A DNA stretch of 64,000 nt from a virus. The notes under the pieces are model-generated. The model did no database searches. It had not been told where the DNA came from and was given only the letters and a program-made list of their open reading frames with translations. Positions 3,997-49,704 of the stretch are shown here, piece by piece. Both the position numbers and the translations under genes were made by a program. The stretch's first letter is position 1, and every line of letters begins with the position of its first letter. The DNA lies in the IMG/VR virus record IMGVR_UViG_3300017971_000001, positions 124,001 to 188,000 of that record; one strand, 5' to 3'.

Positions 3997-4068
3997 AGCG
4001 GGCGGCGGGGATCGAACCCGCGACGAACGGGTTGGAAACCCGACGCTCTACCGCTGAGCTACGCCCGC
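3997..4068 (-). tRNA. tRNA-Gly (anticodon TCC)
   Basis: A canonical 72-nt cloverleaf: 7-bp acceptor GCGGGCG/CGCCCGC, D-arm TAGCTCAGCGGTAGAGC, anticodon loop TTTCCAA giving TCC, T-arm with GGTTCGATCC. CCA is not encoded. It sits between the tmRNA and a terminator, probably on one transcript, and unlike the cluster at 61 kb it has no structural defect. Confidence 0.95.
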
Positions 4069-6325: not shown

Positions 6326-6711
6326 TCAGACCCTTCGATCCATACACCAGATCGAAGATCCTCCGGCATGAGCTCGCCGCGATCGACCAATTCCTTGGCA
6401 GCTTCAAAGACGTAGCTCGGAGAGGCGTGCCCGCCAGTCAACCGCTTCTCCAAAAGAATCTCGTAGTGGAAGTCATAGAGCTCGTCGTCTGCGTGTTCAA
6501 CCGAAGTGATAAACCCAGCGTCTTCTAGATTATTCAACTCCTCTCTCCACCTCTCGATTGAACCCTCGAACGTGCGAAGGTCGCCGTCATGGTCGTAAAA
6601 CTCAACCCGGACCACAGCTTCGACCCCCAGGCTCGCAAGGAACTCGCGCTGCAGGCCGGGTGTGTTGCGCAGGATAGCTGACGCGCGAGCGAGGATTTCG
6701 TCCGGGCTCAC
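6322..6711 (-). CDS. Hypothetical protein
   Basis: 129 aa from a GTG overlapping the TGA of the upstream gene (GTGA). Mixed alpha/beta composition, acidic (VVRVEFYDHDGDLRTFEG; DDELYDFHYEILLEK). No family recognised. Confidence 0.65.
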   Translation of the reverse strand: MSPDEILARASAILRNTPGLQREFLASLGVEAVVRVEFYDHDGDLRTFEGSIERWREELNNLEDAGFITSVEHADDELYDFHYEILLEKRLTGGHASPSYVFEAAKELVDRGELMPEDLRSGVWIEGSE

Positions 6712-22400: not shown

Positions 22401-22778
22401 ACTCGCGTATTCATTCCAGGTGAATTCTGCAGTCTGAAGCTCGCCGTTGATTTGAGCTAAGTCCTTATATGATCGACACTTGCCGCAGCCCATTTGATGC
22501 CCGACCAGTAATGCACGCGTATTGCTAATCCTGCGCGCGTCGGTCTCCTGGAACCCCATGAGCGAGAGGCCGAGGTCAGGCAACTCCCTGAGCCGGCGAT
22601 CAAAGCCGTTGTCGGTGATCCCGTCGACCATGACGCACAAGGCGCAGCACAGCCGTAGCGGCGCCTGGACGAACTCGCCCTCGCCGGGATTAAGCGCCAC
22701 GCCGCAGCGATAGCAGGTGCCCAGGTGCCGGTTGGGAAAGGGCTTGATTCGCTGGTGCAGTCGCTTCTTCTTGGCCAT
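19401..22778 (-). CDS. SNF2-type DNA helicase interrupted by an intein
   Basis: 1125 aa from ATG at 22778 (a TTG 9 nt upstream is an alternative). An N-terminal zinc ribbon (CYRCG ... LCCALC) precedes the Walker A site GHQMGCGK-T, which is split by a 464-residue intein. The extein continues with VFSPSSVRYNW, the DECH box LLADECHAFKNP, YGLSGTP and the helicase C-lobe ending GAGGEGITLTRA ... QAESRLIRIGAEG. This is a superfamily 2 SNF2-like ATPase of the kind used in phage replication or recombination. Two tiny genes follow it on the same transcript. Confidence 0.9.
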   Translation of the reverse strand: MAKKKRLHQRIKPFPNRHLGTCYRCGVALNPGEGEFVQAPLRLCCALCVMVDGITDNGFDRRLRELPDLGLSLMGFQETDARRISNTRALLVGHQMGCGKCRSYKDLAQINGELQTAEFTWNEYASPNIEFDGEGYWSEPTEPLFVNSIDDATGRIVRRPVKRLYRQRVREKLVRVRLNDGSETTITKAHKLRGPEVWTNEIRPGDRICVPARLLHESGDLDLELAELMGWLIGDGREESGRSVFTQKDRMVCERLAGILARLGFEPSINEPRATHLAFDLVSDPGLREFMLRFDYPWGTRSRDRRVPLPVMQGNAEVVRTFLRAYMDAEGSCPKRGSIVEFSSASQLLVKELVHLFRRFGIWVRVRSKRARATNSPNCPYRDYWVGTISGASLRRYRDEVGFSVGYKTEQLERACAKKVNSNTEGLPASDLIRAAFDRAGLPASWWHLDPKYKLSTVYLKGKQEFSRESLAVVVEAMDNMLSGQAAEEYLAGKYRRERIDEALRRLDYDDLRVTRDRAWRLIEQEVHYATVVSVEEVDYDDWVYDLEIERDHNYVAEGILCHNTVISSFGALRSDMPNLVFSPSSVRYNWQKEIKKWRPDLRPKMATSMKNYALKFKALSPGDVLLASFGVLPGEPCKGCKRLRGLLRYLRKERRIGNLILPRCEHTHIDFQHPRTFELVVDGRRRVIPYHYGGKYEEWVDDPDPVKICGHDKHGEPIDRTCHQANPYPEITGPMVLLADECHAFKNPSSFRTQRWRAMRDRVWAMNGFVYGLSGTPCEGKPSEFWEVLKSLGLERAAFGSWDNYFRIFRHWYENPKGSRRPPTAELRDELHARLRRVQINRRRKDVLSQLPPRVEKIIEVEINDKTRREVEEAVHHMLAVKRSWQDVTADSGPHKILSPFEPHLSPDERDRRRLIYDERVEYYFQERPWNKDEEILEAVQEALLSRTQMPTIDELSRIRSMLSQAKFAAVKAWIEECEEENEPVVLFSQHVSILKKLAGESYLDGRPGWDVFHGGVAAKKRQKIVEAFQSGEIERGLAVSIGAGGEGITLTRAKVAGFIDLSWNPAKNQQAESRLIRIGAEGHDSILIVRFVAKHVVDKLVLDTLREKESLLDSLEWDEEERI
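21087..22478 (-). other. Intein with LAGLIDADG endonuclease in helicase Walker A
   Basis: Runs from Cys (CRSYKDL) directly after GCGK to the terminal HN before Thr, 464 aa. Splicing blocks: TITKAH (block B), VYDLEIERDHNYVAEGILCHN-like end (blocks F and G). LAGLIDADG-type helices LAELMGWLIGDG and FLRAYMDAEGS indicate a homing endonuclease. Block A is atypical (CRSYKDL instead of C-L-x-x-D-T). Splicing restores GKT. Confidence 0.9.
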
Positions 22779-22831
22779 TTGGGCCAAGATACGAACGCCC
22801 TACGACGTCTAGCGGGCCAGAAGGCGCTCGA

Positions 22832-36023: not shown

Positions 36024-36560
36024 TTAGGACGCGGGCTGGAGCTCGGGGTGGGCCTCGACGTGGCAGCGGTCGCAGCGCCGCGCCTTCGCCTCCCAGACGT
36101 GCCCGCTCGGGACGCGGTGGCGGTGCCCGCACTCGAGCACCTGGATCCTGGTCGACTCGTCGACCGAGACGACCGCCTTCGGCGCGATCGACCGGCGATC
36201 GGCCTCGAGGTTGACGATCGGGCTGTCAGCCCCGTCTTGCCCGATCCAGCGCGCCTGGAGCGTCTTGGCGGCCGGGGAGAGCTCGGGGACGGAGTCGGTG
36301 TGCGTCACGACCTGGCCCTCCTCTTCGTCGAAGCGGTCACGACGCGCGCGGGCCGCCTCCACCTGAGCCACGACCTCGGGGTCTCCGGCCGCGGCCATGG
36401 CCTGCCACTTCTCCTCGACCTCGTGCCCGACCTCGCGGATCAGGACGTAGCTGAGGCGGGAAAGGGTGGCTGCGAGTTCGGCCCGGTTCATGTCGGCGGG
36501 GCACTCGATCACGAGGCCCTCGGCGCGCAGGTAGCGCTTCATTTCGGTCTGGATCTCCAC
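36024..36560 (-). CDS. Hypothetical protein with C-terminal zinc motif
   Basis: 178 aa from GTG at 36560, with AAGGAG 8 nt upstream and a consensus promoter behind it. Helical N-terminal half (AELAATLSRLSYVLIREVGHEVEEKWQAM); C-terminal half has LECGHRHRVPSG ... RRCDRCHVEAHP, a CGH ... CDRC zinc finger. First gene of its own short transcript, bounded by the hairpin at 35.97-36.0 kb. A regulator role is possible. Confidence 0.7.
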   Translation of the reverse strand: MEIQTEMKRYLRAEGLVIECPADMNRAELAATLSRLSYVLIREVGHEVEEKWQAMAAAGDPEVVAQVEAARARRDRFDEEEGQVVTHTDSVPELSPAAKTLQARWIGQDGADSPIVNLEADRRSIAPKAVVSVDESTRIQVLECGHRHRVPSGHVWEAKARRCDRCHVEAHPELQPAS

Positions 36561-36592
36561 GGCAGTTACTCCTTGCTGGGTGTGGACTGGGG

Positions 36593-36621
36593 ACTCTACG
36601 CACCTCTCTTGCAAGTGTCAA
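36593..36621 (-). promoter_or_regulatory. Strong sigma70 promoter for gene 36024
   Basis: TTGACA (36621-36616), 17-nt spacer, TAGAGT (36598-36593), with the GTG start of the next gene 33 nt downstream. Confidence 0.85.
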
Positions 36622-36685
36622 CGGCCCCTCGGGAAGTCTTCGTGAACCTCCCTGCTAGGTATACCAACGTAAACGCCTTTCGCTG

Positions 36686-36696
36686 AAAGGACTTAC
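36686..36696 (+). promoter_or_regulatory. Candidate operator AAAGGACTTAC, copy 2
   Basis: Exact match to 35895-35905 on the other strand. Here it lies 50 nt before the first rightward gene, next to a small hairpin CTTTC/GAAAG and 20 nt after a GGTATACC palindrome at 36658-36665. A rightward promoter must lie here, but no clear -10 box is visible. Confidence 0.4.
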
Positions 36697-36746
36697 AGCA
36701 CCTGTCGGAGGGCCCTCATACGGTCTGGCCAGCAACGGAGACGCAG

Positions 36747-36950
36747 GTGCCGCGACCGAAGAAGAGCAAGAAACTGAAGCGGGTCCAGAAGCAGGTCTAC
36801 GTCCTGCCGGCCGACCTGGAGCGCGCCGAGAAGAGCCGTCAGCGGCGGTTCGAAGAGCTCAAGACCCTACACGGAATCAACAACTGGACGATCGCCCAAG
36901 AGCTCAACGCCTTGATCGTCGAGTCCCTGAACGCACAGGAGGTGGAGTGA
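36747..36950 (+). CDS. Small basic protein (67 aa), first rightward gene
   Basis: GTG with GGAG 8 nt upstream. RPKKSKKLKRVQKQVYVLPADLERAEKSRQRR ... INNWTIAQELNALIVESL has the length and the basic strand-then-two-helices layout of a ribbon-helix-helix DNA-binding protein, though no key residue proves it. Its position at the head of the recombination operon suits a regulator. Confidence 0.6.
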   Translation: MPRPKKSKKLKRVQKQVYVLPADLERAEKSRQRRFEELKTLHGINNWTIAQELNALIVESLNAQEVE

Positions 36951-38584
36951 CGTTCCCGACCCAAGCAAGCAAGCCGACCGCGGGGCCGCCCCCTGCGCCG
37001 GTCTTCCCGACCCCTACGACGCCGCTGGGCATGAAGGACCCCAGCGTCAAGTTCTGGACCGCTCTCCTGAACGCGCAGCAAGCTGCGCAGAAGCTGGCGA
37101 AGAAGCACCCCGGGCCGCCGAACAAGCGCGCCCCCAAGATCGAGGTCACGGACCCGATCACGGGGCAGCGGTCCATGGCTCACCCTCCCATGTGGACCTT
37201 CGTCAGCGCTGAGGACTTCATTGAGGAGGCGCGTCGCGTCCTCCACCCTGAGGGTCTCGTGCTCGTTCCTACTGGGATCATGGGCGAGCTCGACGCGCAG
37301 TTCGGGCGTCGCAACCGAATCGCCCTCTGGTTCCTGCTCGTCCACGCCCCCTCGGGTGAGGGCGCCTTCCTCCCCATGGAGTTCCCCTACCAGACCAACG
37401 ATCGCTCGACGCACGTCCAGGCCGCTGCGAACAGCTACACGCAGGGCCTGGCGTACTTCCTCCGCGGCCTGCTCATGATCCCGCGCGTGTCGCCTCGGGA
37501 CGAGGACTACCACGAGGTCCTCAACAGCGACGCCCCGCCCCCTCGACAGCAGCCGCAGCAAGGTTTCCAGCAGCCTGCGCCGGCCCAGCAGCAGATCTTC
37601 CAGCAGCCTCCGGCTCAGAACTTCCAGCCGCGGCCGGTCACGCCGCTGTATCAAGGGCCCCAGGGAACCATGATCGGGCACTACGCCGGACCTCCTCCCG
37701 GGCCCCAGGGGACGACCGGAGGCCCCGCGAACTTCGCGCCTCAGCCGACGACGGGCCAGCCGCCCATGCAGCGCCCCTCCCAGACGGCGCAGCGCCCTCA
37801 GCCGCAGCAACCGCAGCAGTTCCCGGGCCAGCAGCCCCTCCCTCGGCAGGGAGGTGGCGCGCAGCCCACCTTTCGCCAGGGCGCGCCGGTCCAGTCGAAC
37901 GGAAACGGAAGCTTTCCTGGTGGCGCTCCGCACGCTCACGGACAGGTTCCGCAAGGGAACGGCTTCGGCGGCGGAGGCGGCCCTGGCGGAGGAGCTCAGC
38001 GCATGGTGGGAGCACCGGGAGCGACTGCGGTCGCGCCGCTTCCGCCGCTCATGAACAGCACCCTGGTTCAGGGCATGGTTCAGCAGACGGGCGCCGTGCC
38101 CGCGTCGCCTGCTCAGGACCAGGCCCAGGCTCAGCAGACCTTCCAGGTCGGACCGCCTCCGCCTCAGGCGATCAAGCCCGAAGACCTGACCGAAATGCCC
38201 TCGGCGGTGCCCCCGCCCAAGGAGCAGAAGATCGAAGGTGTGCGCGAGGACGAGCCTCAGACCAGCGACGACTGGTTCGAGGCCCTGCTCGAGAAGGGCT
38301 GGGATCCGATCGTCGCGACCGAGGTCGCCAACCACCCGCCGAACCTCGTGATCAACGACGCCGTCCGCAACGAGATCTCCTCGAGGGCCATGAGCAAGTT
38401 CGCCACGGACGAGATCCTCAAGGCCTGGAAAGACACGGGCTTCGTCCCCGACCCCAAGGCCGGCGCCAACCGGCCCAAGCCGACCGGGCTCCAGTTGCTC
38501 CGGTTCTGCAACAACCTCAACTTCAACGACCCCTCCCCGAAGCCGGAAGGCGAGAAGCCGGCCGCTCAAACCACTAGCTCGTGA
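36947..38584 (+). CDS. ERF-family single-strand annealing protein with Q/P-rich tail
   Basis: 545 aa from GTG (GTGA overlap). Residues about 60-190 fit the ERF recombinase core: FVSAEDFIEEARRVLHPEGL, LVHAPSGEGAFLPMEF and QAAANSYTQGLAYFLRGLLMIPR ending in acidic DEDY. Residues 195-430 are low-complexity Pro/Gln/Gly, and a small helical domain closes the protein (WFEALLEKGWDPIVATEVA). ERF proteins pair complementary single strands during phage recombination. The following gene is SSB-like, a usual partner. Confidence 0.8.
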   Translation: MTFPTQASKPTAGPPPAPVFPTPTTPLGMKDPSVKFWTALLNAQQAAQKLAKKHPGPPNKRAPKIEVTDPITGQRSMAHPPMWTFVSAEDFIEEARRVLHPEGLVLVPTGIMGELDAQFGRRNRIALWFLLVHAPSGEGAFLPMEFPYQTNDRSTHVQAAANSYTQGLAYFLRGLLMIPRVSPRDEDYHEVLNSDAPPPRQQPQQGFQQPAPAQQQIFQQPPAQNFQPRPVTPLYQGPQGTMIGHYAGPPPGPQGTTGGPANFAPQPTTGQPPMQRPSQTAQRPQPQQPQQFPGQQPLPRQGGGAQPTFRQGAPVQSNGNGSFPGGAPHAHGQVPQGNGFGGGGGPGGGAQRMVGAPGATAVAPLPPLMNSTLVQGMVQQTGAVPASPAQDQAQAQQTFQVGPPPPQAIKPEDLTEMPSAVPPPKEQKIEGVREDEPQTSDDWFEALLEKGWDPIVATEVANHPPNLVINDAVRNEISSRAMSKFATDEILKAWKDTGFVPDPKAGANRPKPTGLQLLRFCNNLNFNDPSPKPEGEKPAAQTTSS

Positions 38585-38601
38585 AAGAAGGACTCTGAAC
38601 C

Positions 38602-39585
38602 ATGAACATGCCTTACCAGCAGCCCGGATACGGCGGGCAGCCCATGCAACCCGCTTACGGACAGCCCATGCAGCAGGGCTACGGACAGCCGCAGCCGGGC
38701 TACGGACAGCCGCAGCCGGGCTACGGACAGCCGCAGCCGGGCTACGGACAACCCATGCAGCCGGGTTACGCGCCCAACCCCTACGGACAGCCCTACCAGG
38801 CCGCTCCCCAGCAGCCCGAGCCGGACGTGAGCAACGCCACGTTCAACATTCCGGTGCCGGGTGAGAACCAGGACGACGTCGATCGCGCCTATTGGGAGAA
38901 CGTGCAGACGACCAACGAGGTCCCCTTCACGCCCGACATGGCCGGCCAGTTCTACAACGCCCAGATCCTGTTCGCCAAGGGCATGGTCGACACGGACAAG
39001 AACGGAGCTCAGCGGGGAACCAAGCTCTTCTTCATTATCGGGCTCAACACGCCCACCGGCCCCCGCAAGGTCCTCGACTCCCTGAACCCCGAGGTCTCCC
39101 ACCAGGCCAAGGTCTTCGCGGCCTTCTGCAAGGCCGCCGTGCCCGAGAAGACCGGCAAGGCGAGCGCCCTCGACTTCCGCGGCCGAAAGATCGTGGTCAA
39201 GGTCGACTACGGCAAGGGCAAGTACGCCGCGGACGGCGAGTCCCCCGACATTCGGATTCGGGGCTACTACCCCGCCGACTACAACCCGCAGGGCGCGCGC
39301 CCGCAGCAGCAGCACCAGCAGGCACGTCCGCAGCAGCCCCAGCAGCCTCAGCAGGGCTACGGCCAGCCGCCCCAGCAGCAGGGCTACCAGCAGCCGCAGC
39401 AGGGCTACCAGCAGCCGCAACAGGTCCAGCAGCAGCCGCAGCAGGGCTTCCAGGGCGGCATGCAGGGCCAGCCTCCCGTCCAGGCGCAGCAGGGCTACGG
39501 CCAGACCTACGGCCAGCCGCCCCAGCAGCAGCCTCAGGGCATGGCCGCGGCCATGGGCGTTCCTGATCAGGACGTTCCCTTCTAG
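38602..39585 (+). CDS. SSB-like protein with prion-like N- and C-terminal tails
   Basis: 327 aa from ATG with GAAGGA upstream. A central domain (residues about 75-220; SNATFNIPVPGE ... TPTGPRKVL ... YGKGKYAADGESPDIRIRGYYP) is flanked by a YGQPQPG repeat N-terminus and a Gln/Gly-rich C-terminus. The last residues DQDVPF match the acidic SSB tail (DDDIPF) that recruits partner proteins. It follows the annealing protein directly, which supports ssDNA binding. Confidence 0.75.
   Translation: MNMPYQQPGYGGQPMQPAYGQPMQQGYGQPQPGYGQPQPGYGQPQPGYGQPMQPGYAPNPYGQPYQAAPQQPEPDVSNATFNIPVPGENQDDVDRAYWENVQTTNEVPFTPDMAGQFYNAQILFAKGMVDTDKNGAQRGTKLFFIIGLNTPTGPRKVLDSLNPEVSHQAKVFAAFCKAAVPEKTGKASALDFRGRKIVVKVDYGKGKYAADGESPDIRIRGYYPADYNPQGARPQQQHQQARPQQPQQPQQGYGQPPQQQGYQQPQQGYQQPQQVQQQPQQGFQGGMQGQPPVQAQQGYGQTYGQPPQQQPQGMAAAMGVPDQDVPF
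38677..38750 (+). repeat. 21-bp tandem repeats encoding YGQPQPG
   Basis: Three to four near-identical copies of ggctacggacagccgcagcc in the SSB-like gene; copy number may be unstable. Confidence 0.85.
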
Positions 39586-39612
39586 CCCTCCGGCTCGAGG
39601 CCTCTCAACCAC

Positions 39613-39652
39613 GCCCGCACGGCTTGCGAATTTCCTGGCCGTGCGGGCTTCT
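39613..39652 (+). terminator. Intrinsic terminator after SSB-like gene
   Basis: 10-bp stem GCCCGCACGG/CCGTGCGGGC, 16-nt loop, followed by TTCTATAAGG. The T-run is interrupted, so read-through into the nuclease gene is likely. Confidence 0.55.
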
Positions 39653-39665
39653 ATAAGGCATTTTC

Positions 39666-41021
39666 ATGGACGACGACAACCAGATCGACCCGGCCGTCAT
39701 GGATCAACCCACCGAGGCGGAGGAGTTCCCCTTGGGCGTTGGCACTGCGACCGAGCCGTATCCGACGAACGCTCCATGGCTCAGCCTCCCTCCGCCCAAG
39801 AAGATCAATCGTCTCTCGCGCTGGCCCCGTGGCGCCAAGTCCCCCTCGTGGTTCAAGAAGCTCGCGACCTGTCCCAAGCAGCACGCCGAGCGCTACCGAC
39901 ACCGCAAGAAGGATCCCAGCGGCCTCGACGCGCTGATCGGAAACGCGATCCACGGCGCGTACGAAGACGCCGGTATGATCCGCATGAAGCCGGGTCGACG
40001 AGGCGCCGTCAATCCCGTGGTGACGCCTGAGGAGTTGATCCACCTCCTCGAGTTCCAGGAAGAGATACGCGAGGGCGTCGAGGTCTACAACCGCTCGCGC
40101 GACATTCTCCAGAACACCAAGCCGTTCTCGCTCGACAACATTTACGACGTCGAGCACCTGTGGAACTTCTACGTCACCCCGTCCCTGCAGGTCGCCGGGT
40201 TCGCCGACCTGATCCAAGCGGTCCCCCACCCCACTAACCCCAGCCTCCCGCCGGTCATGATCGTGGTCAGCGACTACAAAACCGGCCTCGGGCAACTCCC
40301 TTCCCCCGAAGAGCTCGAGACGGACCCCCAGTGCCAACTCGAGCTCGCCTGGGCGCGCCGTAAATTCCCCCAGACCCCCAGGATTCGCTTCCGGATCGTC
40401 AACGTTCAGCTGAACAAAGAGGTCTGGTGCGACTGGACGCCGCACCACCACGAGCGCGCGCTTGGCTTTGCTCGCGCCCTCAGCAACCGCTGGCATTCGC
40501 GGGACGAAACCGCGGTCGTCGGCAATCACTGCAAGTGGTGCCCTTACCGAGCCGGCTGCAGCGCGTTCGAGAAATCGCTCAAGAAGATCACCTTCACGCC
40601 GCTGTCCGAGCTCGACGACCTGTCGCTCGAGGACATGATCCGCGAGTGGAAGACCATGAAGCTCGCTCAAGACCTGACCGAGCGGCGCAGGATCGATCTC
40701 GGCAACAAGATCATGGAGCAGATCCCCTCCGACCAGCGCAGCTACCGCGTCAATCACCTGCTCGCCATGAAGAAGAGCCGCAAGGTCACCAACTACGCGA
40801 GCACGGCCGAGCTCGTCAACGACCTCACCAGCCTTACGGGCACCGTCCCTGACGCGCTGATCGACAGCGTGACCAAGATCCGCAAAAAGCAACTCGAGAA
40901 TTGGATCAAGACCCTTCCGGACCACCTCCAGAAGCCCGCCATGATCATTCTTGAGAAGCACGCAATCGAGAGCGAGACCTCGCCCTGGCTCGAGGTTCAC
41001 GATCGGAAGCCGTTATGGTAG
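39666..41021 (+). CDS. Cas4/RecB-like PD-(D/E)XK nuclease
   Basis: 451 aa. Motif III VSDYKTG and QLELAWARRKFP give the RecB-type catalytic core; LATCPKQ near the N-terminus and HCKWCPYRAGC near residue 300 supply the four cysteines of an iron-sulphur cluster as in Cas4/AddB-type exonucleases. ALIGNAIHGAYE is the conserved GN-x2-H helix. Acts in DNA end processing beside the annealing protein and RusA. The ATG at 39666 gives the full nuclease core. Confidence 0.85.
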   Translation: MDDDNQIDPAVMDQPTEAEEFPLGVGTATEPYPTNAPWLSLPPPKKINRLSRWPRGAKSPSWFKKLATCPKQHAERYRHRKKDPSGLDALIGNAIHGAYEDAGMIRMKPGRRGAVNPVVTPEELIHLLEFQEEIREGVEVYNRSRDILQNTKPFSLDNIYDVEHLWNFYVTPSLQVAGFADLIQAVPHPTNPSLPPVMIVVSDYKTGLGQLPSPEELETDPQCQLELAWARRKFPQTPRIRFRIVNVQLNKEVWCDWTPHHHERALGFARALSNRWHSRDETAVVGNHCKWCPYRAGCSAFEKSLKKITFTPLSELDDLSLEDMIREWKTMKLAQDLTERRRIDLGNKIMEQIPSDQRSYRVNHLLAMKKSRKVTNYASTAELVNDLTSLTGTVPDALIDSVTKIRKKQLENWIKTLPDHLQKPAMIILEKHAIESETSPWLEVHDRKPLW

Positions 41022-41668
41022 CCGAGACCCCGCCCCTGGTCGCCGACCTCGTCCCGCTGACCGTCCTGGACTTCGGCTGGAAGCTCGGCGTCACGCAGCA
41101 CGACGAAGAACTCGAGCGCGAGCTATCGGTCTGCGAGCTCAGCGAACGCGAGGCGCGAGAGCTCCGCGACGGGCTCACGCTCTGGCTGCAGCAGAAGGTC
41201 GCTGATCGAGTTGGCCTGCAGCCGGTCGAGTTCACGATCCCCGGCAAGCCCAAGCCCAAGGGAAACGCGAAGCGGATCGCGAAGCTCTTCGGCAGCAAGA
41301 CGCCGACGATCATTAACGACCGAGACGTGCAGCGAAAGCAGCGCGACTTCTCGGTCGCGGCCATGAAGTTTCGGCCCGAGGTGAACGGGATCTGGGAGTG
41401 CCCGATCCGGCTCGAGGTCACCTTCGTGTTCAAGGCGCCGCAGAAGCCCAAGTGGAAATGGGCCGCTGCGCTCAAGGGGATCTTGCTTCACGTCGTGCGG
41501 CCCGACACCGACAATCTGACGAAGTTCGTCAAGGACGCCCTCGAAGAGATCTTCTACGTGGACGACAAGCAGGTCTGCGAAGAATACGTGCGCAAGATCT
41601 ATGGACCTCAGGCGGAGACGAGGATCAAGCTGATCCCGCTCGAGCAGGCTACGAAGGACATGGTTTGA
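41015..41668 (+). CDS. rusA: RusA-type Holliday junction resolvase
   Basis: 217 aa, overlapping the nuclease stop. The core FTIPGKPKPKGNAKR ... VVRPDTDNLTKFVKDALE ... VDDKQVCEEYVRKIY has the conserved aspartates of RusA (DTDN, DD). Residues 1-65 are an N-terminal extension not in E. coli RusA. Resolves recombination junctions or branched replication forms. Confidence 0.92.
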   Translation: MVAETPPLVADLVPLTVLDFGWKLGVTQHDEELERELSVCELSEREARELRDGLTLWLQQKVADRVGLQPVEFTIPGKPKPKGNAKRIAKLFGSKTPTIINDRDVQRKQRDFSVAAMKFRPEVNGIWECPIRLEVTFVFKAPQKPKWKWAAALKGILLHVVRPDTDNLTKFVKDALEEIFYVDDKQVCEEYVRKIYGPQAETRIKLIPLEQATKDMV

Positions 41669-42252
41669 CCCGGAAGAAAGCGATCCCGAAGACGCTCGTC
41701 CAAGACCCCCTCCCCTACGACAGCCCGAACGAACTCCTTGACGTCATGTCGTTCGACCAACTGCTCGCTCACTACGAAGGCAATCACGCCGACTACGTTC
41801 GACGCGGCAACGAACTACTCAAGAAGAAGGCCAAGCGCCGGCTCGGCAACTACGACAACGCGCGCCTGACCTTTGAGATCAACGGCGCCCAGCTGCACAA
41901 CCTGTGGTGGGAAAACCTCAAGAGCCCCTACGATCAAAGCAATCCGCCCGCTGCGGTGACGGATCTGTTTGGGGGGTCCGCCGCGGCCCTCCGCAAGGAA
42001 ATCCTCAGCGAGGGCTCCAAGCTCATGGGGAGCGGCTGGGTCGCGCTCAGCCAACTGAAGCGCAAGCCGAAGCAAGCTGACGTTCACGTCGTCACGAACC
42101 ACGACTACAACTGGTCGCTCTACCGACCGCTCCTGCTGATCGACCTGTGGGAACACGCCTTCTACCTCGACTACGAACACGAGCGCGACGAATACGCCCA
42201 GAGGATCTACGAATGCGTCAACTGGGACGTGGTCGGGGAGCGCATTCAATGA
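41665..42252 (+). CDS. Iron/manganese superoxide dismutase
   Basis: 195 aa from TTG (TTGA overlap with the RusA stop). All four metal ligands are visible: His in LLAHYEGNHADYV, His in GAQLHNLWW, and Asp and His in LIDLWEHAFYLDY. GSGWVALSQLK, TNHDYN and YECVNWDVVGERI also fit the family; Tyr of HADYV is present. Converts superoxide to peroxide. Placed inside a recombination operon, which is unusual. Confidence 0.9.
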   Translation: MTRKKAIPKTLVQDPLPYDSPNELLDVMSFDQLLAHYEGNHADYVRRGNELLKKKAKRRLGNYDNARLTFEINGAQLHNLWWENLKSPYDQSNPPAAVTDLFGGSAAALRKEILSEGSKLMGSGWVALSQLKRKPKQADVHVVTNHDYNWSLYRPLLLIDLWEHAFYLDYEHERDEYAQRIYECVNWDVVGERIQ

Positions 42253-42611
42253 GCAAGCTCAGGTGTCCGCTCTGTAACCGAGTCCGCGGGAAGCCGGTGC
42301 TCGAGGTGAAGCGCGAATGTGGCGAGCAGGTTTTCGTCGGGTGCGCGGACTGCTTGATCCACCTGATCGACCAATACAACCGCCGGGTCCTCGATTCAAC
42401 GTGCTACCTGTGCGGGTCCAAGAAAGAGCAAACGATCTTCGCGGGAGGGAGCCAGCGCCTCGAGTGCTCGCTTCACTATCAGGCGCGCTTCCTCCTCGGG
42501 CAGGCGCTCCAGCACATGAGTAAAGCCCTGGGTGAACAGGAGCTCGATCGGCGCCAGGTCGAAAACTGGTGCCTCAACGCCGCCGCCGCGCTCGGCGCAA
42601 CGGAGATCTAA
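42249..42611 (+). CDS. Hypothetical protein with three cysteine pairs
   Basis: 120 aa from ATG (ATGA overlap). CPLCNRVR, GCADCLI and CYLCGSKK suggest zinc binding. No family recognised. Confidence 0.65.
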   Translation: MSKLRCPLCNRVRGKPVLEVKRECGEQVFVGCADCLIHLIDQYNRRVLDSTCYLCGSKKEQTIFAGGSQRLECSLHYQARFLLGQALQHMSKALGEQELDRRQVENWCLNAAAALGATEI

Positions 42612-42985
42612 TGAACGAGATCGAACGCAAGCAGAAGTTGTGGATCGAGTCCAAGCCTCAAACCCCGAACCTCTATGAAGCCTTCGAGGCGGGCTGGAAA
42701 GCTGCCCAGGAAGCTACGAGCGCGGAAAACCGCAAGGGCTCGTCCCTGCGTGGCCGGGTGATCGTTCAGTTCCGCACGCTCTTCTCCAACGAGCTCGCGA
42801 ACGAGAATCCGAAGTTCTCGTCTCAAGTCGCCTGGCCCTGCCTCGAGCTCGACGACGGAACGCTCGTCTACGCGGGCAAGAAGCTGCCCGACGGGCTGCA
42901 CGGACCGGCGAGACTGCTCGGCGTCCAGGGCGATCAGAAGGTCATGTTCACGGCGAGTCATGCCACGATCGCCAAGAAGGTGTAG
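42611..42985 (+). CDS. Hypothetical protein
   Basis: 124 aa from ATG in a TAATG overlap. Helical N-terminus (NLYEAFEAGWKAAQEA), then beta-like (GRVIVQFRTLF ... CLELDDGTLVYAGKKLPDG). The first part resembles a short helix common in phage proteins. Function unknown. Confidence 0.65.
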   Translation: MNEIERKQKLWIESKPQTPNLYEAFEAGWKAAQEATSAENRKGSSLRGRVIVQFRTLFSNELANENPKFSSQVAWPCLELDDGTLVYAGKKLPDGLHGPARLLGVQGDQKVMFTASHATIAKKV

Positions 42986-43257
42986 TGGACTTCCACCGCT
43001 CAGAGAGTTTACGCGAAGTCGTCGGACTCAAGGTGTATCGTCACCGCGTCGAGTGCGAGGAGTTCGGGCAACGCGAATTCACGTTCATGGTCAAGGACGG
43101 ACTCGTTCGCGTGATCGAGTCCTACGGGAACACGTCCCGGGAACTCGGCAGCAACATTCCCCTGGACGGCCTGATCGCCTGCGCGGTCAGCTGGCTCAGC
43201 GAACCCACGGCAAGCAGCAAGCATGAAGCCAACCGTCGAGCAGCAAGCGGTCATTGA
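42985..43257 (+). CDS. Small hypothetical protein
   Basis: 90 aa from GTG (TAGTG overlap); runs 35 nt into the helicase gene. VYRHRVECEEFGQREFTFMVKDGLVRVIE looks beta-rich. No family recognised. Confidence 0.55.
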   Translation: MDFHRSESLREVVGLKVYRHRVECEEFGQREFTFMVKDGLVRVIESYGNTSRELGSNIPLDGLIACAVSWLSEPTASSKHEANRRAASGH

Positions 43258-46200
43258 GCACGGCACGGGTCCGGCGCTCGTCCTCGCTGACGCCGGCAGC
43301 GGCAAGACGACCACGATCCTGCTGCGGATCAAGAACCTGATCCGGCGCGGCGTTCCTGCCAACCAGATCCTTATGATCACGTTCAGCCGCGCCGGCACCG
43401 AGGACATGATCCGCCGCGCCCGCGAATTGGGCGTCCCTCGAGGCGTGCAGTACCGAACGCTGCACAGCGTCGGTAAGGAAATGATCAAACGAGGATTCCC
43501 GCTGCAGGAGGAACGGACCTTCCGCTGGCCGCGCGAGGACTCGTCGGAAGACGAAGGCGGGAGCATGACTTTCTCGATCCCGACCGAGGGCGAGGAGGCG
43601 AAGAAGGAACCGGCCTTCGGTCAGCGGGTCGGGCGGAAGCAGTCGCTCGATATCGATATCGAAAAGCTCATGAAGGCCACGCTGCTCAACTACAAGGACG
43701 AGCTCGAAGCGAAAGGCCCCGTCAGCCGCGCGCACCTCGCCCCCAAGGTCAGTGAGGTCATGAAGCTGATCGACTTCAGCAAGTCCAATCTGATCTTTCC
43801 GGACCTGATCGACGAAACGACCGGCGAGCTCTTCTGCGAAGGGGCCTGGAGCAGCAGCGACGGAACGAAGTTCCCCTGTTTCATGGACTGGGCCTGGGAG
43901 AACCTGAGGATCTCTGAGGACGAGAACGAGCCCGGCCGGATCCCGGTCGTGATCGAGGCCGTGCAGCGCTGCTACATGAAGCTGCAAATGGCCTCGGCCT
44001 GCCCAGAGTATCACTCGTCGAACGAGTACTACGCTCTGCACGCCCACCGCTGGATCACGTTTTCCGACATGATCGCGCTGCCGGCGCAGGCGATCCTCAT
44101 GGGCCTTCCCTGGGTCTCGCCGTGGTGGGGCAGGTTCTCGTTCGTGATCGTGGACGAGGTCCAGGACAACAACCTTGGCCAATGGGCCATGGTCCGTCAC
44201 CTCGCCCGAGACAACAACCTCATGGCGGTCGGCGACGACTCGCAATCCATTTTCAGCTTCCGCGGCGCCCGGCCTGAACTCATGGGCTTCTTCAGGCAGG
44301 AGCTCATGAACTCGCAGGTCTACGGGCTCTCGGTGAACTTCAGGTGTCCGCACGAGGTCGTCAATCAGGCGAACAACCTGCTCAGCCACGCGCCGAACAA
44401 GCTAAAGGAAAAGCCCGCCCAGGCGCTCGAGTCTGCCTTGCCGGGACGGATCACGGTCACGTCTTACGCCGAACCCCTGAGGGAGGCGCGCGGCGTCGTC
44501 AAGAAGATCCAGGGCTATCAGGCGGCTGGGTTCCCCTCGCATGAGATCGCTGTGATCTACCGCACGCATGCCAGCGCTGGCGCGGTCGAGATCGAACTGA
44601 TCCGCAACCGAATCCCCTACCGCGTTCAGGGCTCTCCGTTCTTCAGCAAACCGATCGTCGCGGCCACGATCGGTTACCTCGGTCTCGCACTCGAACCCGG
44701 AGATCGGGAGTGGCTCAAGGCCTGCTACTGCAAGCCGCTGAGGAGTCTCAACCGAGCCTTCTTGAACACGTACGACAACTACGCTGCAGCGGTCAACGCC
44801 TTCGAGAACGACGAGGTCAAGCAGTGGCGCTGGAAGCGAGGTATTCCCAACCTTCGCAAGGCGGTCACCGAAACCCGGAAGGCGCTCAAGGAAAAGGGGG
44901 TGGGGGACGCGATCCGCCATGTGCTGTGGAAGCTTGAACTCGTCAAGTTCTTCGTCAATCGAGCCTCGGGCGACGGGAAGATCGAGATCGAGGACTACGC
45001 AAGAAACCTGGAGGACCTAGGGGATTGCTACGACAGCGCAGAGGATCTCCTGCGATACGTCCGGCTCATGCGCGACGACGATATCGCCGAGGCCGACCAC
45101 GACAACACCTACCTGAACAAGAAGTCCGCTCCGGGTCGCGTGGTGTTGAGCACCATTCACCGCTGCGTCCACCCGGACACTCTTATCGAAACAGGCGAGG
45201 GCCTGATTCCGATCAAGCTAGCCTCGAAATCCGGTCTTATCGGAACCCCGAAAGGGCCCCTCCGCTACAAAAACCTTGTTCGCAATCCGAGCAGAATTGG
45301 GATAAAGGTCACGACCGAAAGAGGGTACGAGCTCACCATGACGCCGGACCACGGAATCCAGGCATGGGGAGGAAATGGATACCGACGGCACCGCGCAGAC
45401 GAATTAAAGGAAGGCCAATTCGTTCGCTTGAAGCTGGGCGTGAATTGCCCTGCTGGAGAGGTTCCTAGCCTTCCAAGTCCAGGAGTCGGTGATATCCGTG
45501 AGCACGTCTGCAAAATTCCGCAGCGAATGAGCAGCGAGCTAGCTGAATTCCTGGGTTTGATAGTTGGCGACGGAACTTGCTACAAGCGAGGCGTCAGGCT
45601 GAAGAAGCGCCACGAAGAGGTTGTAAACCGCTTCTGCGCGCTAGGGAAATCGCTTTTTGGGCTAAACGCTATCCGAAAGAAAGAACAGGCGAAGAAGCCC
45701 GGCTACAACCTGACTGGAGAATTCGTCCACTACGCAGAAATCAACAGCACCAAGCTTTGCAGGTGGCTTGAAATCCTCGGAGGCACCTCCCCTCAGGAGA
45801 AGTCGATCCCCGAGTGCGTCCTGAGGAGCCCGGCAATCATTCAGGCCTCATTTCTCAGAGGACTGTTTGAAGACGGAACTGTAAATGTGAAAAAGGGGAA
45901 ACTCGATCATATCGACTGGTCCAACAAAAGCGAAGAAATGGCCAAGCAGGTTCAGGTCATGCTTCTGAGATTTGGGGTCGCCTGCAAGCGCAGGAGGGTC
46001 GAACACCAAGGAAGGAATAATACGCACATTTACATTTACGGAGAATTTGCCTCCAAGTTCGGAAGGTCGATCGGAATGATCAGCAAGGTCAAACAAGACC
46101 GCCTTTCGTGCGCCCCTGGCCGCCAAATGTATCCGGTCCCTATAGCCAAAAACGAACTTCGCTTCCTGAGGAACCAGGACAGAGCAAACGCCAGCCACAG

Positions 46201-46627
46201 AGGGAGGGTAAGCCGTTGGAAAGCAGCCCTCGTCCCCGATTTGATCGGGAAGCTGGGTTTCTTTCACGACCCGATTAAGAGTATTGAAATCGTAGAGTGC
46301 GAGTCCATGTGCGTCGAGGTTCCTGAAATGGGGAGGTTCCTTCAGAACGGATTCGACGGGCATAATTGCAAAGGCCTAGAGTACGGAACCGTTTTTTTGA
46401 TTCGGGCGAACGAGGGGGTCGTTCCGCACCGCCTGGCGGACCTGTCCGAAGAGCGCCGCCTGTTCTACGTCGCGGTCACCCGGACCAAATCGACCTGCGA
46501 GATCAGCTACGTGCAGGAGACCACCTTAGGCCCGGCGTTCCAGAGCCAGTTCATTCAGGAGCTCAAGCAGCGAAAGGAGGTGCGGATTGGACGAAAAGCT
46601 GACGAAAGCTTGGCGAGCTTGGCGTAG
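43223..46627 (+). CDS. UvrD/Rep-type superfamily 1 helicase interrupted by an intein
   Basis: 1134 aa. Walker A LADAGSGKTTT, MITFSRAGTEDM (motif Ia), IVDEVQDNN (II), GDDSQSIFSFRG (III), VNFRCPHEV (IV), and after the intein CKGLEYGTVFLI (V) and FYVAVTRTKS (VI). Motif V, TIHR-CKGLE, is split by a 401-residue intein. A 3'-5' SF1A helicase for replication or repair. The 2A-type insert between motifs Ia and II is long. The ribosome binding site of the next gene lies inside its 3' end. Confidence 0.92.
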   Translation: MKPTVEQQAVIEHGTGPALVLADAGSGKTTTILLRIKNLIRRGVPANQILMITFSRAGTEDMIRRARELGVPRGVQYRTLHSVGKEMIKRGFPLQEERTFRWPREDSSEDEGGSMTFSIPTEGEEAKKEPAFGQRVGRKQSLDIDIEKLMKATLLNYKDELEAKGPVSRAHLAPKVSEVMKLIDFSKSNLIFPDLIDETTGELFCEGAWSSSDGTKFPCFMDWAWENLRISEDENEPGRIPVVIEAVQRCYMKLQMASACPEYHSSNEYYALHAHRWITFSDMIALPAQAILMGLPWVSPWWGRFSFVIVDEVQDNNLGQWAMVRHLARDNNLMAVGDDSQSIFSFRGARPELMGFFRQELMNSQVYGLSVNFRCPHEVVNQANNLLSHAPNKLKEKPAQALESALPGRITVTSYAEPLREARGVVKKIQGYQAAGFPSHEIAVIYRTHASAGAVEIELIRNRIPYRVQGSPFFSKPIVAATIGYLGLALEPGDREWLKACYCKPLRSLNRAFLNTYDNYAAAVNAFENDEVKQWRWKRGIPNLRKAVTETRKALKEKGVGDAIRHVLWKLELVKFFVNRASGDGKIEIEDYARNLEDLGDCYDSAEDLLRYVRLMRDDDIAEADHDNTYLNKKSAPGRVVLSTIHRCVHPDTLIETGEGLIPIKLASKSGLIGTPKGPLRYKNLVRNPSRIGIKVTTERGYELTMTPDHGIQAWGGNGYRRHRADELKEGQFVRLKLGVNCPAGEVPSLPSPGVGDIREHVCKIPQRMSSELAEFLGLIVGDGTCYKRGVRLKKRHEEVVNRFCALGKSLFGLNAIRKKEQAKKPGYNLTGEFVHYAEINSTKLCRWLEILGGTSPQEKSIPECVLRSPAIIQASFLRGLFEDGTVNVKKGKLDHIDWSNKSEEMAKQVQVMLLRFGVACKRRRVEHQGRNNTHIYIYGEFASKFGRSIGMISKVKQDRLSCAPGRQMYPVPIAKNELRFLRNQDRANASHRGRVSRWKAALVPDLIGKLGFFHDPIKSIEIVECESMCVEVPEMGRFLQNGFDGHNCKGLEYGTVFLIRANEGVVPHRLADLSEERRLFYVAVTRTKSTCEISYVQETTLGPAFQSQFIQELKQRKEVRIGRKADESLASLA
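45164..46366 (+). other. Intein with LAGLIDADG endonuclease in helicase motif V
   Basis: From Cys648 (CVHPDTLIETGEG, a classic block A) to HN1048, followed by extein Cys1049. Block B is LTMTPDHGI; block G is the NGFDGHN end. SSELAEFLGLIVGDGT and FLRGLFEDGTV are the two LAGLIDADG helices. Its DNA looks richer in A and T than the extein on both sides, which fits recent acquisition. Confidence 0.92.
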
Positions 46628-47312
46628 TGACCCTACGCCCGAGAACGCCATGGAGTGGGCCGTGCTCCAGGCCCGCACGCAGAGCGTAGGACCGTCGGAG
46701 ACGCCGCTCCATGAAGTTCAATGGGTCAAATACAGACCCACTAGCGGAAGTCACATACTGCGGGATCACGTCGAAGCCGCGGTCAACGTCTACTTCGGTC
46801 GGGACATGGAGGACGTTGTCGTCGGAGAGCTCAGCTGGTTGACCCAGTGCCACTACTGGCTGCTCGGAACTCGGCCTGGGCCCGCTGCGATCTCACTGCT
46901 CGGAAAGTTCTATCAAGACCACGACATGGAACTCGTGGTCGGCGACGAGGACCGAGCCAACAAGGACTACGAGCAGGCGACCGAGGAGGGATCCGTCGCT
47001 CAGCTGAGGCGGGAGATCGCTCGCCTTCGCCAGGACCTCAATAAAGCTCGGGCCGAAAGCGCTCAGGGCGCCCGCGCTCAGCTGAAGAAGTCTCAAGCAG
47101 AAGTCGCCAAGCTGAAAACGGAACTCGAAAACAAGAAGTCGTTTCTCGACCTGAGGAATTCTGAACTCAAGCGCCTGCGGAAAGAGGTTCAGGAGAGCAA
47201 GGAGCTCAAGGCCGACCTGTGCAAGCTCGCCAACCTGGAAAAGAGCAACAGCATTCTGCGGGAAGAGAACAACCGCCTGGCGAAACTGCTGCAGGCGAAG
47301 GCGAAGCCGTGA
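46587..47312 (+). CDS. Coiled-coil protein
   Basis: 241 aa from TTG, preceded by AAAGGAGG (46573-46580) at a 6-nt spacing, which decides this start although it overlaps the helicase by 41 nt. Residues 1-125 are globular; 130-235 are an uninterrupted coiled coil (LRREIARLRQDLNKARAESA ... LREENNRLAKLLQ). Function unknown. Confidence 0.75.
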   Translation: MDEKLTKAWRAWRSDPTPENAMEWAVLQARTQSVGPSETPLHEVQWVKYRPTSGSHILRDHVEAAVNVYFGRDMEDVVVGELSWLTQCHYWLLGTRPGPAAISLLGKFYQDHDMELVVGDEDRANKDYEQATEEGSVAQLRREIARLRQDLNKARAESAQGARAQLKKSQAEVAKLKTELENKKSFLDLRNSELKRLRKEVQESKELKADLCKLANLEKSNSILREENNRLAKLLQAKAKP

Positions 47313-47644
47313 AGCGCTGGGAGTTCCTCGAAAAGGGCGATATGGTCGTCGACCCCACGGGGCGAGTCGGGACCGTGGTCTACGGGCCGGTCAAGGAGAA
47401 CTGGTTGTTCACCAAGATCCCGACGGGTCGAGCGACCTACTACGTCGAGTTCAGCCGAGAGGCGACTGACCTACGCGGGATCCGCCGCGCCAAGAAGGCG
47501 CGCGAAAAGGGGAAGTGGGTCACGGGCGAGGTCTGGAAGAGTCAGGAGCTTAGGCGATTGAGTCGCGAGCTCCAGCAAATGGCCGATAAGCTCCAGCGAA
47601 TGGCGGGGGAGAGCGACGACTACCCCTACGGGAGAGGCGCATGA
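47309..47644 (+). CDS. Hypothetical small protein with KOW-like start
   Basis: 111 aa from GTG (GTGA overlap). FLEKGDMVVDPTGRVGTVVYGPVKENW suggests a small SH3/KOW barrel; C-terminus is helical (LRRLSRELQQMADKLQRMAG). Function unknown. Confidence 0.65.
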   Translation: MKRWEFLEKGDMVVDPTGRVGTVVYGPVKENWLFTKIPTGRATYYVEFSREATDLRGIRRAKKAREKGKWVTGEVWKSQELRRLSRELQQMADKLQRMAGESDDYPYGRGA

Positions 47645-48078
47645 AGAAGACCGAAGAACATGACCCGCGCACTCACCCCCGCCTCCTCGACAAGGTCTCC
47701 AAGAGCGGGCGCGAGCGCTGCGTCGAGTTCGTGAGCGCCATGGGCACGATCGTCTACTCGACCGGGACGAGCGAAAAGAAGTGCTCGCTCGAGTCCTGGC
47801 GACGCTGGGCCAAGGGGGCCGAAATCGTCCGCCGCGGCCGCGCGGACGGGAAGAGGGCGCTTGAAAACCAACTGTCCCGGGAGATCAACTTGATCCGAAA
47901 CCGACTGGGAGAGATCGGCCAAGGCACCGAGCCCAAGTTTGCGAACGAGGACGAGATCGAGCTCGCGCTGATCGATCTTTCGCTGGCGCTGTACGAACAC
48001 CACTCGACGCATTACCTGCCGACCTCGATCGGAATCGAGTCGATTCGCCAGGCCATTCTCAGGAGGAGGCTGGCGTGA
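47641..48078 (+). CDS. Hypothetical protein sharing its C-terminus with an NP module
   Basis: 145 aa from ATG (ATGA overlap). The last 16 residues (IGIESIRQAILRRRLA) are identical at the DNA level over 43 nt to the end of a module in the gene at 9058-11136. There the same peptide is followed by GFNP. So a free-standing gene and an internal module share an end, which suggests module fusion. Confidence 0.7.
   Translation: MKKTEEHDPRTHPRLLDKVSKSGRERCVEFVSAMGTIVYSTGTSEKKCSLESWRRWAKGAEIVRRGRADGKRALENQLSREINLIRNRLGEIGQGTEPKFANEDEIELALIDLSLALYEHHSTHYLPTSIGIESIRQAILRRRLA
48027..48069 (+). repeat. 43-nt exact dispersed repeat, copy 2
   Basis: Matches 9730-9772 on the other strand without mismatch and sits at the very 3' end of the gene at 47641. 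Confidence 0.9.
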
Positions 48079-48254: not shown

Positions 48255-49006
48255 AGACCCACGCTCGCCTCAACGAAGACGCCAAGATCACCTTCTGCGG
48301 ACGAGAAATCGGAAGGAAGTTCCAAGGCGCCGCCGAGTCCACGCACGATCTCTGCGGATACCTCAAACTCCCGGTCGAAGAAGTGTGCGGAAACTGCCGG
48401 CCGAAGGTCGTCGTCTGGAACGACAGGGGGTACGTGCCCATGCCGGACGGAAAGCAGCAGCCGACGATCACGACGGTCTCCGGGATCCGGTTCACGCCCT
48501 TCGACCCCCAGTTGGACCAGATCAACATTCGCGATATCGCGACGGCGCTGAGTCACCTCTGTCGCTGGTCGGGCCACGTTGAGCGCTTTATATCGGTTGG
48601 AGAGCACTCGATCTGGGTCTGCAAGCTGATCGAAGAGCAAGGCCACGGTACCCGGGCCGCGCTCACGGGGCTGCTCCACGACGCCAGCGAGGCCTACCTG
48701 GCCGACCTGCCACGTCCGATCAAGTACCACAAGGGCCTCAAGGCCTACCGGACCACGGAAGACCGGATCCACGCGGCGATCGCGCGCAAGTACGACCTCG
48801 AGTGGCCCCACCCGCCCGAGGTCAAGGCGGCTGACAACAGCCTGTTGATCACGGAGGCCGTGACCCTCAAGGGGTTGGATCTTTCGATCGAGGGTTCCTC
48901 TTGTATCCCCTGGATTCAAGCTCACCTCAACGCACCGGCCCCTTCGTTCAGCGCCGTTCAAGAGGATTTCATTCAGCACTTCCGCAGGCTGAGGAACATG
49001 CTGTGA
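48251..49006 (+). CDS. HD-domain phosphohydrolase (YfbR-like)
   Basis: 251 aa. CGNC near residue 50 may bind metal. SVGEHSIWV ... TGLLHDASEAYLADLPRPIKY is the HD motif in the arrangement of YfbR/nucleotidase-type proteins that act on nucleotides. Probably part of phage nucleotide metabolism; substrate unknown. Confidence 0.8.
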   Translation: MKTHARLNEDAKITFCGREIGRKFQGAAESTHDLCGYLKLPVEEVCGNCRPKVVVWNDRGYVPMPDGKQQPTITTVSGIRFTPFDPQLDQINIRDIATALSHLCRWSGHVERFISVGEHSIWVCKLIEEQGHGTRAALTGLLHDASEAYLADLPRPIKYHKGLKAYRTTEDRIHAAIARKYDLEWPHPPEVKAADNSLLITEAVTLKGLDLSIEGSSCIPWIQAHLNAPAPSFSAVQEDFIQHFRRLRNML

Positions 49007-49704
49007 GCGACGAGCGACTTCGAAAGCTGAAGGTCGCGGCGCGGTTCGATCCCGAAGCCGATATCGACTACCTTCGCGAGCGGATCCGCGCAGGAGAGCT
49101 CAGCCCCGACCGAGTCGAGGCCGCGGCGTTGCTGGGCAGCGAGCGAGCCCAAAAGGCCCTCGGTTGGAACTTGATCGCCGAGGGTGAGGACGTACTCACC
49201 TTCGAGCGGGGAGTTCAGGAGATCTTTGTTCCGCTCGGCCCGCGCGCGCGAATCATGGGCATGAAGAAGTTCGGCTTAGAGTATGTCTTCCTCGCTTCGC
49301 GTGCCGCCTCTCGCTTCCTGCACGGAATCTGGTCGCGGGACGCCGTGAGCGCTGGGCTGTCCGCTGAACTCGTCACGCTGGGCGACGAGGTCCTCATTGC
49401 CTGCGGACCTGAAACGGTCGGCAGGTTTCCTGATTTCGACTACGACGCCTGCTCTTGGGCGAGTAGCGACGCGATTGAGCGATTCAAGGCCAGGATTGAC
49501 CACTCCTTGCTCCGGTCGGTCAATATGTGGCCCGGCCACCTGATCAGCATTTCCCGAGGAGCGTGGCTCATGAGCCGGGGTCGCGAGAGCGTTGCCTACT
49601 CGACGCTTTCTGAAGCAAACTTCCGCAACCACGGCGAAGAAAGCGCTTGCCGTGAGGCCATGAAAAGAGATACCGTCCCTGTCCTGCTAGGAGAAGACTC
49701 ATGA
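49003..49704 (+). CDS. Hypothetical protein with R-L-R module
   Basis: 233 aa from GTG (GTGA overlap). SDERLRKLKVAARFDPEADIDYLRERIRAGELSPDRVEAAALLG is the longest and best-preserved copy of the recurring module, with the helix-turn 'GELSPDRVEAAALLG' known from proteins of Myxococcales and Planctomycetes. The remaining 180 residues are unassigned. Confidence 0.7.
   Translation: MSDERLRKLKVAARFDPEADIDYLRERIRAGELSPDRVEAAALLGSERAQKALGWNLIAEGEDVLTFERGVQEIFVPLGPRARIMGMKKFGLEYVFLASRAASRFLHGIWSRDAVSAGLSAELVTLGDEVLIACGPETVGRFPDFDYDACSWASSDAIERFKARIDHSLLRSVNMWPGHLISISRGAWLMSRGRESVAYSTLSEANFRNHGEESACREAMKRDTVPVLLGEDS

Follow-up and report, generated by a model that had tools for sequence, protein, structure and literature searches.

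A phage Fe/Mn superoxide dismutase with a substituted gateway histidine, encoded in a recombination operon

The closest described systems include the Fe/Mn superoxide dismutases (SODs) of the SodFM3 and SodFM4 subfamilies, most of which have a C-terminal water-coordinating histidine (Sendra et al. 2023, PMC10172142). The words ‘virus’, ‘viral’ and ‘phage’ are absent, by term search, from the available text of three SOD classification papers (PMC10172142, PMC13008324, PMC13370989); to the extent of that text, the classification omits viruses. Titles and abstract openings in the literature yielded no paper on a phage SOD of this kind. The gateway residue, His30, has been replaced by asparagine in engineered MnSODs. 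The human H30N enzyme has a k1 of 0.21 against 1.5 and a k4 of 480 against 120, and is the least product-inhibited of the His30 mutants (PMC9208312); the C. elegans H30N enzyme has 22% activity and more Fe, and a Gln142His substitution in the C. elegans protein leads to cambialism (PMC8190026). Phage genes for the iron-sulfur proteins IscA and IscU have been reported in a paper whose available text does not contain the word ‘superoxide’ (PMC5332604). In bacteriophage T4, the capsid targeting sequence is a short leader containing a [LIVFM]xE[AGSM]-type motif, which is cut after the glutamate by gp21 (PMC9026906).

The gene presented here lies in a stretch of 64,000 nucleotides (the window), taken from positions 124,001 to 188,000 of IMG/VR record IMGVR_UViG_3300017971_000001; the whole record has 245,276 bases and a single SOD gene, with no second copy. 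The gene occupies positions 41665–42252 of the + strand, starts with TTG, ends with TGA and encodes 195 residues. Its start overlaps the stop codon of the upstream rusA gene by 4 bp (TTGA, 41665–41668), and its stop overlaps the ATG of the following gene by another 4 bp (ATGA, 42249–42252). A GAAGGA sequence inside rusA (41653–41658, +), 6 nt ahead of the TTG, resembles a ribosome-binding site by consensus only.

The fold is established computationally at the levels of sequence and structure. Both SOD domains of Pfam score over their curated cut-offs (Sod_Fe_C, PF02777, 1.3e-21; Sod_Fe_N, 9.2e-7). Comparison with PDB sequences gives 158 distinct matches at E ≤ 0.001, all of them SODs among the 60 listed; the top match is a Sulfolobus FeSOD (4.1e-22), with an LTF-ING-LH stretch in common. 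The AlphaFold model, built from 74 aligned sequences, has a mean pLDDT of 93.0 and a pTM of 0.89, and SODs make up all 50 of its listed PDB structure matches (TMq 0.75–0.87, the highest value being with a Sulfolobus SOD). The protein scores far under the cut-offs of the NCBIfam equivalogs, and no SOD family was found for it in PHROGs. Among viral structure models there were two strong matches, of 182 and 501 residues, both annotated ‘superoxide dismutase [uncultured Caudovirales phage]’, so proteins of this type are already named in the databases. The preliminary description had proposed a 195-residue SOD with all four metal ligands and the catalytic tyrosine, overlapping the rusA stop within a phage recombination operon; Pfam, the PDB and a 99-row alignment confirm the enzyme assignment, the overlap and the operon are borne out, and no match to a non-SOD family appeared in Pfam or among the listed PDB matches. 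As judged from sequence and model, the protein is a genuine, well-integrated phage Fe/Mn SOD, with predicted activity.

The operon is read directly from the gene arrangement, a + strand run from 36747 to 47312 in which gaps do not exceed 80 bp and most genes overlap. Upstream of the SOD gene, all on the + strand, are genes for an Erf-like ssDNA annealing protein (36947–38584; phrog_155, 5.3e-6), a protein with Gln/Pro/Gly-rich ends and no family in Pfam or PHROGs (38602–39585), a PD-(D/E)XK exonuclease (39666–41021; PF12705, 7.7e-11; phrog_69, 1.9e-19) and the RusA-like Holliday junction resolvase (41015–41668; PF05866, 2.7e-19; phrog_140, 4.3e-32). On the downstream side are a 120-residue protein whose translation shows zinc-ribbon-like cysteines, with no Pfam family (42249–42611, +), and a UvrD-like helicase with a LAGLIDADG intein (43223–46627, +; PF00580, 5e-37; PF14528, 2.8e-17; phrog_1967, 8e-84). 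The GC3 of the SOD gene is 0.84, compared with 0.82–0.88 for its nearest neighbours; this neighbour-like composition, together with the 4-bp overlaps on both sides, indicates a settled gene rather than a fresh insertion. Promoter and terminator scans of 36500–48000 gave hits at chance level only.

The exonuclease has a four-cysteine arrangement, C69 and C289-x2-C292-x5-C298, like that of Cas4 and AddB, in which one N-terminal and three C-terminal cysteines bind an Fe-S cluster; a zinc-bearing relative is also reported (PMC3466216), and by analogy the window nuclease could hold Zn in place of an Fe-S cluster. No match to it was found in named phages or the PDB.

The viral status of the record follows from its IMG/VR classification and from its phage-type replication and integrase genes. 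When 65 chosen ORFs of the record were compared with PHROGs, the 25 families listed, of 80, comprised methyltransferases, regulators, an exonuclease and others, and included no terminase, portal or capsid; a smaller PHROGs scan (n = 10) gave a weak tail-sheath match (0.0033). Since no relatives of the helicase or of an 1100-residue protein were found in IMG/VR, the phage lineage appears to be an orphan there. Several other features of the record may be mentioned. LAGLIDADG intein-type insertions number three, in the UvrD helicase, in an SNF2 helicase (window 19401–22787, −) and in a Mom-like DNA modification protein (L181:847-2481, +). A phage-borne tmRNA gene (window 4149–4557, −), with the tag peptide ADQKAHLPTATSRA, adjoins a tRNA-Gly gene (3997–4068, −). 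A paralogous family of small proteins with many members shares, by eye, the start MSD-x-RLRELER-x-A-x-GDP (window 48901–49704, +; L179:10177-10665, −; L179:10653-11144, −; L174:7850-8371, −; and others). Elsewhere in the record are a TnpB/Cas12f1-like transposon protein (L178:13948-16071, −) and a tyrosine integrase (L178:6730-7740, −).

The active site was analyzed in an alignment of 99 rows, comprising the window protein, 36 short viral, 5 other viral and 57 cellular sequences, with the cellular and viral rows sampled from among the matches listed. The four metal ligands, H36 (codon at 41770–41772), H78 (41896–41898), D160 (42142–42144) and H164 (42154–42156), all on the + strand, are invariant in 99/99 rows. 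H36 corresponds to His26 in E. coli FeSOD numbering. The catalytic Tyr34 is present as Y44 (41794–41796, +), and the glutamate of the dimer bridge (E163) and Tyr163 (Y167) are intact. The gateway is altered: the position of His30 is occupied by N40 (41782–41784, +), whereas it is histidine in all 57 cellular and all 5 other viral rows, and leucine (35) or isoleucine (1) in the 36 short viral rows. A gateway histidine paired with Tyr34 is a conserved trait of Fe/Mn SODs, although it does not strictly define them. Two positions before the aspartate ligand (D-2) the window protein has a leucine, L158, as do 32/36 short viral rows and at most 2/57 cellular ones. The C-terminal water-coordinating histidine, at the position defined in PMC10172142, is H146 (42100–42102, +), and is likewise found in 34/36 short viral rows. 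Tyr163, retained in the window protein, is lost in 36/36 short viral rows. The combination of gateway asparagine and C-terminal histidine suggests an enzyme that would use Fe, or either Fe or Mn, with slower turnover and less product inhibition than in a canonical SOD; by analogy with the engineered enzymes, we predict that product is released faster and that metal use moves towards iron. Enzymes of a viral branch in which the gateway is naturally substituted would be material for probing the role of His30.

The short viral branch consists of SODs from PA5oct-group phages, Vibrio phage 2.275.O and IMG/VR contigs (L010–L089). SOD had been called rare in phage genomes, which holds for named records, 27 of 50,697 of which match by tblastn (several of them unannotated). 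Twelve of these are clearly phage, 11 belonging to the PA5oct group and the twelfth being Vibrio phage 2.275.O; on inspection, the SOD regions of PA5oct and of this Vibrio phage are unmistakably phage. The rarity does not extend to IMG/VR, where relatives are encoded in 311 of 373 pattern-matched stretches in a first scan and in at least 500 of 600 in a second; the best 80 loci of each scan, in overlapping sets, were read, and L116 was left out of the viral set. Exact-peptide scans with the window SOD gave no match in the viral contig collection, and 10 matched stretches in the cellular collection, none of them a relative. Among the named records, L004 (MW462191.1) and L007 (CAKLQH020000036.1) are deposited as phage, and their SOD regions resemble a bacterial chromosome. 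L006 (MT835482.1), a fecal record called phage, encodes at about 5902–6558 a divergent SOD-like protein, which may be a degenerate SOD and seems to have Gln where Tyr34 would be.

Phylogeny, which the preliminary description had looked to for a comparison with bacterial enzymes, gives a divided answer. In a 115-row tree, 35 viral SODs form one clade (support 97/96) with the window protein beside them (97/99), and in a 91-row tree the window protein again groups with viral rows (99/98); L006 was dropped from the careful trees on account of its very long branch, and the window row itself is a long branch. Placement with SodFM3/4 is not rejected, however: a constraint grouping the window protein with 23 SodFM3/4-like rows raised the likelihood by 2.46 (p-AU 0.554), and one grouping it with 21 such rows in the second sequence set lowered it by 12.43 (p 0.252). 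The tests thus allow the gene to have been captured independently from a cellular SodFM3/4 donor, an archaeal or bacterial host, with the shared residues arising by convergence and the same function in superoxide detoxification; that the best PDB sequence match is the Sulfolobus FeSOD and that Tyr163 is kept would also suit such an origin. Against it, besides the free trees, are the loss of His30, which occurs in none of the cellular rows, the leucine at D-2, which is nearly confined to viral ones, and the failure of the exact-peptide scan to find a close homologue in the cellular collection. We therefore regard independent capture as unlikely, while being the strongest of the alternatives. 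The shared gateway loss and D-2 leucine tip the balance, and the window SOD probably belongs to the virus-specific branch rather than with the cellular SodFM3/4. The 91-row tree suggests several acquisitions of SOD by phages, represented by the short His-type branch, a lineage with a C-terminal Gln, L186/L195, and L222.

In the short viral branch the SOD gene is often coupled to genes of iron-sulfur assembly. In 55/80 short-type viral loci (23/33 when redundancy is removed) the SOD has an IscA-like ORF no more than 3.5 kb away, and IscU is beside the SOD in 10/80; in the second IMG/VR scan IscA is found at 3/46 non-redundant loci, all three of the short type. A signature search places an IscA ORF downstream of the SOD in 51/82 short-type loci with enough downstream sequence, at a spacing of 20 bp or less in 26 and of exactly −4, a 4-bp overlap, in 14. 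In a Pfam analysis of the neighbours of 12 viral SODs (89/142 ORFs), Fe-S_biosyn was the most frequent family (4), with NifU_N found twice and a class-V aminotransferase, a ferritin and a ClpS once each. SOD-IscA operons, some with IscU-like genes, are seen at L013:7950-8996, L011:7932-8883, L067:7950-9502 and other short-type loci; at L067 an HNH-endonuclease-like ORF stands between the SOD and IscA. IscA was sought in the window record, PA5oct and Vibrio phage 2.275.O and found in none of them. The synteny that the preliminary description had hoped to trace in relatives is not there, as homologues of the eight queried window neighbours are near none of 160 viral SODs. Since IscA and shared neighbours are absent, the iron-sulfur link of the window SOD is one carried over from its relatives.

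The reading that we favour, with some confidence, is that the window gene encodes a cytosolic, His-type Fe/Mn SOD that is co-translated with recombination genes and protects iron-dependent enzymes. The protein, most likely descended from a virus-specific branch spread among large tailed phages, would be catalytically competent in the cytosol of the infected cell, converting superoxide to oxygen and hydrogen peroxide. As its translation would go along with that of RusA and the recombination genes, its level may rise while phage DNA is being recombined and copied, so that iron-dependent phage and host enzymes could keep working during replication; the chief beneficiaries would be Fe-S proteins, such as the adjoining Cas4/AddB-like nuclease. 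The preliminary description had considered a defence against an oxidative burst or recruitment to another use. Because IscA is operonic in 55/80 relatives and the nuclease has its four-Cys motif, a role in shielding iron-dependent enzymes against the superoxide of ordinary metabolism appears to fit better than one against a host burst. As to another use, the fold might have been turned into a structural, metal-holding or DNA-associated recombination factor with weak or no dismutase activity, as its place among recombination genes could suggest, and the replacement of the gateway histidine does lower activity in known enzymes. But the four ligands, Tyr34, the Glu-His bridge and Tyr163 are all intact, which argues against a loss of catalysis; the C. 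elegans H30N enzyme remains partly active (PMC8190026), and the window protein has no added domain. Such repurposing is in our view quite improbable.

A different fate, loading into the virion head, is suggested for relatives. A [LIVFM]xE[AGSM] motif is present in the leader ahead of the SOD domain in 25/35 short viral rows (500 shuffles: mean 3.4, maximum 10) and in 31/46 non-redundant rows of the second scan, a few of which are of the short type (shuffle mean 7.7, maximum 16); as the leaders are homologous and not independent, the shuffle test overstates the significance. Among 80 cellular rows examined, the motif occurs in 0/70 with a leader of at least 8 residues. Peptidase_S77, the T4-type prohead protease, was found in 10/20 distinct SOD-bearing records besides the window record, PA5oct and Vibrio phage 2.275.O among them, and a T4-type capsid protein in 9/12 SOD-bearing records and then in 2/3 further ones. 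An INEA/INES site near residue 58 is seen in 3/9 capsid loci read, some of the nine being in the wrong frame. In GenBank the PA5oct SOD bears the note ‘ESI-MS/MS’, which lends packaging weak support, since thymidylate synthase and DNA ligase bear it too.

The second scan shows a further form, in which more than 100 residues follow the SOD (37/80 loci; whole proteins of up to 911 residues). The linker between the SOD and the C-terminal part contains [LIVFM]xE[AGS] in 35/37 cases (shuffle mean 7.5, maximum 14); the motif is tenfold denser there than in the C-terminal part. Fusions are seen at L184, L190, L193, L194, L196, L199, L201, L214 and L219, and also at L228, L244, L246, L248 and L258–L261, and Leu-x-Glu sites of the cleavage type lie between their parts. 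From these sequences they look like head-packaged polyproteins that the prohead protease would cleave. Inspection by eye alone gives the C-terminal part a nuclease-like look; in the two fusions submitted to Pfam, no domain in that part passed its cut-off.

The motif-bearing leaders of relatives, and the T4-type protease in half of the SOD-bearing records tested, raise the question of whether the window SOD is also packaged in the virion and injected with the DNA, as proposed for the T4-like jumbo-phage relatives. This we consider very improbable, as the window protein has no leader with the motif, its record shows neither Peptidase_S77 nor a T4-type major capsid protein, and its gene sits in a recombination operon. 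Bacterial contamination or misassembly, by which a chromosomal SOD would have been placed in the record, has a counterpart in the chromosome-like L004 and L007, but is negligible in view of the tight overlaps with phage genes, the matching codon composition and the absence of a close cellular match in the exact-peptide scan.

More tentatively, and with rather more doubt than attaches to the favoured reading of the window gene, we propose that large tailed phages use a virus-specific SOD, its His30 replaced, to protect Fe-S enzymes, the T4-like jumbo form being head-loaded, protease-cut and injected and the window form unpackaged. In relatives, the pairing of SOD with IscA and the leaders resembling capsid-targeting sequences suggest active phage control of iron and superoxide as soon as infection begins. 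If this is true, T4-like jumbo phages would open infection by injecting a dose of SOD; a second head-loaded lineage, independently recruited, would be the SOD polyprotein and its further domain; and the window phage would make its unpackaged SOD from a recombination operon, beside an Fe-S-type nuclease.

Compared with the SodFM3 and SodFM4 enzymes of Sulfolobus and other archaea and bacteria, the window SOD has the same fold, four ligands, Tyr34 and C-terminal water-coordinating histidine. Homotetramer formation is a further mark of those subfamilies. The window SOD differs in reading HXXXNH in place of the HXXXHH of SodFM3 (PMC10172142), in its leucine at D-2, and in its location in a recombination operon of a phage genome; SodFM4 loses the last histidine of HXXXHH, whereas the window protein loses the first of the pair and retains the last. 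With the short viral branch it shares the lost gateway histidine, the leucine at D-2, the C-terminal histidine, a short loop before the Asp ligand and a phage record; in contrast with that branch, its gateway residue is Asn rather than Leu, Tyr163 is kept, the stretch between the first two ligand helices is longer, and both the leader and the IscA neighbour are missing. The engineered H30N MnSODs of human and C. elegans have the same asparagine at position 30, combined with a C-terminal glutamine where the window SOD has histidine. The T4 internal head proteins IPI–III (PMC9026906) resemble the viral relatives only, in their short N-terminal leader, which ends in a Glu cleavage-type site; the window SOD is set apart from them by its leaderless start and by a genome that shows no Peptidase_S77.
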